Assembly: GCF_000376225.1 (NCBI RefSeq)
Contig: NZ_AQXL01000133.1
Span: forward strand, 62,001 to 126,000
DNA: 64,000 nt
Direction: 5' to 3'
Origin: Effusibacillus pohliae DSM 22757
Lineage (GTDB): Bacteria; Bacillota; Bacilli; Tumebacillales; Effusibacillaceae
Shown: in pieces, positions 44,043-45,763 of the stretch
How positions within the stretch are numbered: position 1 is the stretch's first letter
Layout: each line of letters begins with the position of its first letter
Translations under genes and position numbers: made by a program
The notes under the pieces: generated by a model
Database searches by the model: none
Told to the model about the DNA's origin: nothing
The model's input: only the letters and a program-made list of their open reading frames with translations

Positions 44043-44240
44043 ATGCGCCTCCTGTGCGTTTTTCTTTCATTGTAGCACAACACACGGCGGCCCGACCTCC
44101 ATCTGCATCCTCCCTCATCGAAATGTTGAGCCTGTTTGCGATCCGCTTACGGAGATGGTTATAACCTTTGATCGATGGTATTATTACCCTTTGTTATAAT
44201 AAAATAGTCGGGAACCTTGTGTGGATGGGAGGAGAAACGA

Positions 44241-45512
44241 GTGAGGGAAGAGTTGGTCGGACATTTCAAAACCATCTGGGACAACACGTTCGTCCGGATC
44301 TGGAATCCGACTGTGGCCGCCGTTTTTGTGGGGCTTTTGAGCGCATTTTATTTCGGCTTGACAGGAACCGTTTGGGCGGTCACCGGCGAATTTACGCGGA
44401 TAGGTGGGCATGTGTTGATCCTGTTGGGCGTCGACACTTCCGGTTGGTCGTATCTGACGCTGATCAAATTCAATCCGCAGCAGGCACCGTGGGAACGGAC
44501 AGACGGATGGATCGTGTTTGGCATGTTGTTTGGCGCCTTGATCAGCACGCTGTTTGCCAACAATTTCAAAATTCGGGTGCCGATGCAAAAACGCCGGCTT
44601 GTCCAGGGATTTGTCGGCGGCCTGCTGGCCGGGTTTGGCGCACGGCTGGCGATGGGCTGCAACCTGGCAGCATTTTTTACGGGAATCCCGCAGTTTTCGC
44701 TGCATTCTTGGCTGTTTATGCTGGGGACGCTGATCGGCAGCTATTTCGGCGTAAAAATCGCCCTGCACCCGTTGATGCTAGGGAAACCCGACTTGCGGAC
44801 GGGTGGGCGGGGGCCGGTTCGTCCGCCTGCGAAAAAACGGCGTTCGGTGCAACCGCTGCTGGGAGCAGGAATTCTCCTGCTGTATACCGGAATCTGCTGC
44901 TACTTTTTCCTGATGAACCAGTGGAAACTCGGCATCGCTGCGATCTTCGGCGGGCTGTTCGGGTTGGCGATCGACCGCGGCCAAATCTGCTTTACATCGG
45001 CCTTTCGCGACTTGTGGGTGAGCGGCCGGTCGGTGATGGCGCGGGCGCTGGCGGTCGGGATTCTGGTGGCAACGCTCGCGACGGCGGTGTTTCATTTTAC
45101 AGGCTTGAAACCGATCTCCTGGTGGGCAAGTCCTGGCGCGCTCGTCGGAGGCCTGTTGTTCGGTGTCGGCATCGTGATCGCCGGCGGTTGTGAAACCGGC
45201 TGGATGTACCGGGTGGTCGGCGGGCAGGTGCAATTTTTGGTGGTCGGCATCGGCAATATCGTCGGGGCAAGCCTGCTGGCGTGGGGGTGGGATCATCTGA
45301 ATCTGTACAACACGTTCCAAAACGGCTGGCCGAAAATCAACCTGCTGCAGCAATGGGGATGGGCAGGCGCGATCGGCGGCACCGTGCTGTTGCTGGTAGC
45401 CTGGTACCTATTCTCCCTGCTGTGGGGGGCGAAAGTCCGCTGCGATCTGCAGGCGAAAGGTAAAGCGGCCGATATGGAAGTGAAAATCGGGCGGGAGGTG
45501 ACCTTTCCATGA
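44241..45512 (+). CDS. yedE: YeeE/YedE-family transporter
   Basis: A 423-residue membrane protein with about ten helices in two homologous halves, the fold of the thiosulfate transporter TsuA. Conserved cysteines lie in AMGCNLAAFFTG (half 1), RGQICFTSAFRD and GGCETGWMYR (half 2). GTG 44241 follows GGGAGGAG. Its stop overlaps the next start (ATGA). In many anaerobes a YedE protein and a TusA-like YedF protein form a pair linked to selenium metabolism; the overlapping UGA-containing gene fits that pattern. Transport of sulfur or selenium species is the likely role. Confidence 0.85.
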   Translation: MREELVGHFKTIWDNTFVRIWNPTVAAVFVGLLSAFYFGLTGTVWAVTGEFTRIGGHVLILLGVDTSGWSYLTLIKFNPQQAPWERTDGWIVFGMLFGALISTLFANNFKIRVPMQKRRLVQGFVGGLLAGFGARLAMGCNLAAFFTGIPQFSLHSWLFMLGTLIGSYFGVKIALHPLMLGKPDLRTGGRGPVRPPAKKRRSVQPLLGAGILLLYTGICCYFFLMNQWKLGIAAIFGGLFGLAIDRGQICFTSAFRDLWVSGRSVMARALAVGILVATLATAVFHFTGLKPISWWASPGALVGGLLFGVGIVIAGGCETGWMYRVVGGQVQFLVVGIGNIVGASLLAWGWDHLNLYNTFQNGWPKINLLQQWGWAGAIGGTVLLLVAWYLFSLLWGAKVRCDLQAKGKAADMEVKIGREVTFP

Positions 45513-45763
45513 GCGACTGGCCGAACGAGGAAATCATGCCGGATTACACTCTCAACCTGGAAGGGGAACCCTGACCGTATCCGGTTGTGTATGCGCTGGA
45601 AGCGCTGTCCGCAATGAAGTCGGGGGAAATCCTGGAAGTGATCACAGATTGTCCGCAGTCGTTTGCAAGCCTGCCGGAAGAGGTGGTGGCCCACGGGCAT
45701 CGACTGGTGGTGCAACCGATCAAGGAAGGTCCGATGATGCGGTTTTACGTACGGGCGAAATAG
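45509..45763 (+). CDS. TusA/YedF-like sulfurtransferase with in-frame UGA at the catalytic Cys (probable selenoprotein)
   Basis: 85 codons from ATG 45509 (GGGAGGTGA upstream) to TAG 45761-45763, with one in-frame TGA at 45572-45574. Read through, codon 22 falls exactly where the TusA/SirA family has its catalytic cysteine: NLEGEP-[UGA]-PYPVVYALEAL, that is, C-P-x-P becoming U-P-Y-P. The remaining 62 codons keep the family pattern (GEILEVITDCPQS; VVAHGHRLVVQPI) with no other disruption, which argues against decay. A SECIS-like hairpin follows (45593-45605). If selenocysteine is not inserted, a 21-residue peptide results. The gene overlaps yedE by four bases. Confidence 0.8.
45585..45614 (+). 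promoter_or_regulatory. Bacterial SECIS-like hairpin
   Basis: GCGCT (45593-45597), loop GGA, AGCGC (45601-45605) is a perfect 5-base stem whose loop starts with G, 23 bases after the UGA. TTGTG (45585-45589) and CGCAA (45610-45614) can form a lower stem. Distance and G at the loop start agree with the general bacterial SECIS model (loop about 16-37 bases after UGA). It lies within coding sequence, as required. Confidence 0.6.

Follow-up and report, generated by a model that had tools for sequence, protein, structure and literature searches.

The yedF gene of Effusibacillus pohliae DSM 22757 is predicted to be a genuine selenoprotein gene, in which an in-frame UGA at codon 22 is decoded as selenocysteine (Sec). 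We set the probability of this reading at about 0.93, on comparative evidence and without evidence at the protein level. The gene lies in the 64,000-nt stretch of DNA analysed here (the window) and overlaps yedE, its upstream neighbour. The relevant features were as follows:

44241-45512, + strand: yedE, selenium metabolism membrane protein YedE/FdhT (NF033796, 495.5 bits, cut-off 350; PF04143)
45493-45501, + strand: Shine-Dalgarno sequence GGGAGGTGA, 7 nt 5′ of the yedF ATG (read from the sequence)
45509-45763, + strand: yedF, predicted 84-residue selenoprotein (NF008242, 104.5 bits, cut-off 79; PF01206, 63.6 bits)
45572-45574, + strand: UGA, codon 22, predicted Sec at the reactive site GEP-U-PYP (read from the sequence; UGA at the same codon in 18 genomes, Cys in 27)
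45588-45609, + strand: putative bacterial SECIS hairpin (inner stem in 18/18 versus 1/27 genes; RNAalifold; pair counts)
45650-45652, + strand: Cys48 codon, second conserved motif DCPQS (in all relatives except L070/L077)

yedF carries a UGA codon at its reactive site

The yedF frame runs from the ATG at 45509 to a TAG at 45761-45763 and its product reads MSDWPNEEIMPDYTLNLEGEP-U-PYPVVYALEALSAMKSGEILEVITDCPQSFASLPEEVVAHGHRLVVQPIKEGPMMRFYVRAK. The initial annotation had placed a UGA exactly at the reactive cysteine of a TusA/YedF-like protein, followed by 62 codons that stay in frame and end normally, behind a good ribosome binding site and overlapping yedE. All of this was found as described: the UGA is codon 22, aligned with a Cys in E. 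coli YedF (PDB 1je3, GEPCPYP) and in 27 relatives, 62 of the 84 residues follow it up to the TAG, GGGAGGTGA precedes the ATG by 7 nt, and this ATG and the yedE stop codon overlap in the sequence ATGA. The proposed membership of the TusA/SirA/YedF-like family also stood, but could be narrowed from a generic TusA to the YedF equivalog, as the protein scored 104.5 bits against the NCBIfam model NF008242, above its cut-off of 79. TusA itself, the tRNA thiolation relay protein, was rejected (32.3 bits versus an equivalog cut-off of 78), as was the thiosulfate protein TsuB/YeeD (26 bits versus a family cut-off of 147.5). Such a gene will probably be missed or cut short by ordinary gene calling, because the standard code ends the frame after 21 residues.

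The likely start of yedE is the GTG at 44241 behind GGAGGAG, within a frame open from a TTG at 44217. The same arrangement, with yedE adjacent to and upstream of yedF, was present in 46 out of 46 loci examined. At one of them (L052, approximately positions 850-1000 with yedF oriented on the + strand), the yedE beside a UGA-containing yedF looks frameshifted in mid-gene, which may be a true break or an assembly error.

The genome encodes the selenocysteine machinery

The genome assembly (135 contigs totalling 3.36 Mb, completeness 99.85%) was searched for the selenocysteine genes selA, selB, selC and selD; absence of the first three had been named as a refutation of Sec insertion. All four were detected: the tRNA-Sec gene selC (68.5 bits, anticodon TCA), SelA (528.7 bits), SelB (402.5 bits) and SelD (417 bits); MnmH is also encoded. 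The selD gene, with selA directly upstream, has an in-frame UGA of its own at KAG-U-GCKIG (contig C135; around 1531-1533 of locus L027), so the organism holds at least one recognised selenoprotein gene. In the proposed mechanism, SelB and tRNA-Sec(UCA) would decode the UGA of yedF, directed by the SECIS hairpin, and Sec would thereby be placed at the reactive position of the protein.

The UGA recurs across relatives and is followed by a constrained sequence

Relatives were collected from the 30 of 399 sampled Bacilli genomes that have the protein, 7 further Bacillota genomes and 9 genome-contig loci. These gave 46 loci, or 45 distinct relatives including the window when one duplicate was counted once; no survey was made outside Bacillota. 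The codon aligned with the window UGA was UGA in 18 of the 45 and Cys (TGC or TGT) in 27, so that the orthologues bear exactly the alternatives, UGA or Cys, for which the initial annotation had proposed to look, with UGA in 17 genomes besides this one. All but one of the 18 UGA carriers are Bacilli; the exception is a Chloroflexi MAG (L040), so that the UGA spans two phyla. The placement of the UGA in yedF is not due to chance, as the same UGA is present in 18 distinct genomes. Within the genus, G002 (86% identity) and G001 (61% identity) have it as well; G003 gave no YedF match despite having SelA, SelD (with UGA) and MnmH, through either loss or an assembly gap. Plasmid records contained only YedF proteins below 60% identity, mostly enterobacterial. 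An error of sequencing or assembly that made TGA from TGC or TGT could be suspected in a draft of 135 contigs, but it is excluded by the presence of the same UGA in independent assemblies, including the single-contig G001. Since 17 other genomes share the codon, a TGC or TGT on resequencing, which would have refuted the prediction, is not expected.

On a tree built from 78 columns, four changes between UGA and Cys are required, of which well-supported branches force at least three; with so short a tree and many unresolved forks, it is uncertain in which direction each change went. Within one genus, the gene at L062 has UGA and that at L065 has Cys and no hairpin, which looks like a change to Cys accompanied by loss of the hairpin. 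Downstream of the UGA, seven pairs of UGA genes gave pN/pS values of 0.05-0.20, indicating that this part of yedF is translated and constrained. Synonymous sites were near saturation in several of these pairs and, taken with the low pN/pS, this argues that the hairpin codons shared by the UGA genes do not merely reflect recent common descent.

A SECIS-like hairpin is conserved in the UGA genes

The putative SECIS hairpin starts 13 nt after the UGA, with its apical loop 22 nt after it, and comprises an inner stem (45593-45596 paired with 45602-45605), the loop UGGAA (45597-45601) and an outer stem with a bulged U. Counted from the U of the UGA, bases 22-34 read GCGC-UGGAN-GCGC, or ACGC...GCGU in L067 and L068. 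All four inner pairs were present in 18 of 18 UGA genes versus 1 of 27 Cys genes (Fisher P = 1e-11). When codons +7 to +12 were randomly recoded with synonymous codons, weighted by the codon use of these same genes, the full stem was kept in a mean of 1.1 and a maximum of 6 of the 18 genes; codon choice does not account for the hairpin. At +7 and +10, all Ala codons were GCG, compared with 12 of 46 elsewhere after the UGA. RNAalifold, with no structure supplied, returned the same helix together with four outer pairs and the bulge, and pair counting gave 92.4% paired cells versus 15-54% in slid registers. Compensatory changes were seen in two hairpin pairs (G-C to A-U in one; G-C to U-A or C-G in the other).

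The published bSECIS model describes a loop of 3-9 nt on a stem of 4-16 bp, 16-37 nt after the UGA, with a G in the first two loop positions and an MFE of at most -7.5 (PMC13188914). These criteria were met by a 5-nt loop with G in second place, a distance of 22 nt and a 4-bp inner stem in all 18 genes, plus the outer pairs; the MFE of the region ranged from -8.0 to -20.0 over 51 nt. The window copy has an intact inner stem and a weak outer stem, and its SECIS region folded alone was not exceptionally stable (z about -0.6 to -1.1). As the single-copy fold is not significant, the SECIS assignment rests on conservation over 18 genomes. RNAalifold also drew an extra helix next to the UGA (columns 1-4 with 13-16), which we do not claim, these columns being largely fixed by the coding sequence.

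The predicted selenocysteine form of YedF is confined to genomes with SelA

SelA was detected in 18 of 18 genomes with a UGA-yedF versus 11 of 27 with a Cys-yedF (Fisher P = 2e-5). The Fisher P values reported here are too small, because the genomes are related and their independence is overstated; they serve as a guide only. The Sec form of YedF is thus restricted to genomes able to make Sec. SelD was found in 43 and MnmH in 40 of the 46 yedF genomes searched. Cys-yedF genomes without SelA have SelD and MnmH, with the exception of G160 and G718 (the loci pair L070/L077), which lack SelA, SelD and MnmH and whose YedF reads DHPPS where all other relatives have DCPQS or a close variant at Cys48. 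This suggests that the YedE-YedF homologues of L070/L077 form a non-selenium branch. From the pattern of SelA, SelD, MnmH and YedE, we therefore infer that YedE-YedF goes with the use of selenium in either form. Separately, G045, a fragmented MAG of 280 contigs (L046), has a UGA-yedF, SelA and MnmH without a SelD match; its selD is probably missing from the assembly.

These results bear on two other readings of the UGA. If a nonsense mutation had inactivated yedF and the rest of the frame had not yet decayed, a UGA would likewise interrupt the frame; the initial annotation had judged this less likely than Sec insertion, and the comparison bears it out. Such a pseudogene is excluded by the recurrence of the UGA in 18 genomes, the purifying selection seen in the low pN/pS after it, the intact Shine-Dalgarno sequence, start and stop, the conservation of the SECIS only in UGA genes and the presence of SelA in every UGA genome. 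The second reading, which we consider very improbable, holds that the UGA is often or mainly read as Cys, by thiophosphate misuse or a near-cognate tRNA, and acts mainly as a selenium-sensing switch. Given thiophosphate, the Sec machinery can incorporate Cys, and Cys homologues are the commoner form of YedF; nevertheless, the strict retention of UGA and SECIS between deeply diverged genomes suggests selection for Sec itself, and the forced Sec/Cys changes on the tree, including that of L065, also speak against Cys insertion. Altogether, the machinery, the recurrence of the UGA, the link to SelA, the hairpin and the purifying selection make read-through by Sec insertion very likely.

A possible role of YedE-YedF in selenium uptake and delivery

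A UGA/Cys pair is conserved at the reactive site of YedF, beside YedE, in selenium-using genomes. The initial annotation had suggested a dedicated pair for selenium or sulfur uptake and delivery. We somewhat favour a role of YedE-YedF in selenium uptake and delivery, inferred from genomic context and from the pair YeeE-YeeD; the transported or relayed compound is untested. YedE and SirA-like/YedF proteins have been linked to selenium by comparative genomics (PMC5322559; PMC2276186), and in YeeD the equivalent Cys is the catalytic centre at which thiosulfate is decomposed, with persulfide and thiosulfate adducts forming on it (PMC11073785). By analogy with this thiosulfate pair, YedE would move an ion containing selenium, or selenium and sulfur, and the selenolate of Sec22 in YedF might bind it as a per-selenide or selenosulfide. 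Cys48 could perhaps resolve the adduct, and YedF may then hand reduced selenium towards SelD, for the synthesis of selenocysteine and 2-selenouridine. Full-length Sec-YedF should accumulate only with selenium available, because its own synthesis needs selenium, and the same would be expected of the Sec-form SelD of this genome.

Accepting Sec decoding, YedF could instead be a redox or detoxification protein, involved in selenium export through YedE or in selenite reduction. Many Sec proteins are redox enzymes, and in the proposal of Lin et al. (2015) YedE may export selenium and the two-domain YedF has a redox link. Nonetheless, YeeE-YeeD, the closest studied analogue pair, carries out uptake, YedF accompanies SelD in 43 of 46 genomes, and FdhU is reported to act on the selenium-dependent formate dehydrogenase of Campylobacter (cited in PMC5322559). 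We thus regard this alternative as unlikely, although whether YedE imports or exports is not settled. For uptake and delivery, the importance of the pair is that YedE and YedF have long been candidates for the still unidentified step by which bacteria take up and deliver selenium. That Sec and Cys alternate naturally at the reactive residue, in a pair conserved in many Bacilli, points to this residue as the site where selenium is handled, and Sec22 would give YedF a handle that can be labelled with 75Se.

Comparison with known systems

E. coli YedF (1je3; NF008242, sulfurtransferase-like selenium metabolism protein) belongs to the same equivalog as the window protein, is of similar length and shares with it the GEP-x-PYP and DCPQS motifs and the yedE-yedF neighbourhood, but has Cys where the window protein is predicted to have Sec. 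Sequence similarity to this solved structure is enough to assign the fold of the window protein. YeeE-YeeD (TsuA-TsuB) likewise combines a Sulf_transp membrane protein with a TusA-like protein bearing one reactive Cys (PMC11073785), whereas YedE and YedF of the window score below the TsuA and TsuB cut-offs and their substrate presumably contains selenium. The two-domain YedF/EF_2566 (TIGR03527), linked to SelD, has the SirA-like N-terminal domain in common with the window YedF, but adds a second, DsrE-like domain lacking in this short form. In the same genome, SelD with Sec is another case of a selenoprotein that serves selenium supply, though as a selenophosphate synthetase it belongs to an unrelated family.

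A 2022 table of prokaryotic selenoproteins (16 verified and 71 predicted families) does not include TusA, SirA or YedF, and term searches of a 2026 review and of deep-Sep 2025 did not find a selenoprotein of these names. Neither did any paper in the literature searched name one, subscription literature and GenBank annotation being outside the scope. Although YedF was already linked to selenium, Sec-YedF is apparently an undescribed selenocysteine form of a known family, inside the selenium-supply pathway, since the reviews searched name no TusA, SirA or YedF. The wider proposal, to which we give slightly less than an even chance, is that YedF is an unlisted selenoprotein family in which the supply pathway builds its own carrier with selenium and, together with Sec-SelD, forms a positive feedback loop. 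If so, selenium would have to be present before full-length Sec-YedF, and hence selenium delivery, is switched on. The YeeE/YedE-family (GUxSG) and DsrE-like selenoproteins of the reviews also have Sec in families that handle sulfur or selenium, but they are different proteins. Canonical TusA-like genes with Cys (SCPMP), paralogues of the window yedF, were observed at L016 (4333-9353), where they belong to a sulfur cluster that also encodes rhodanese and DsrE-like proteins.
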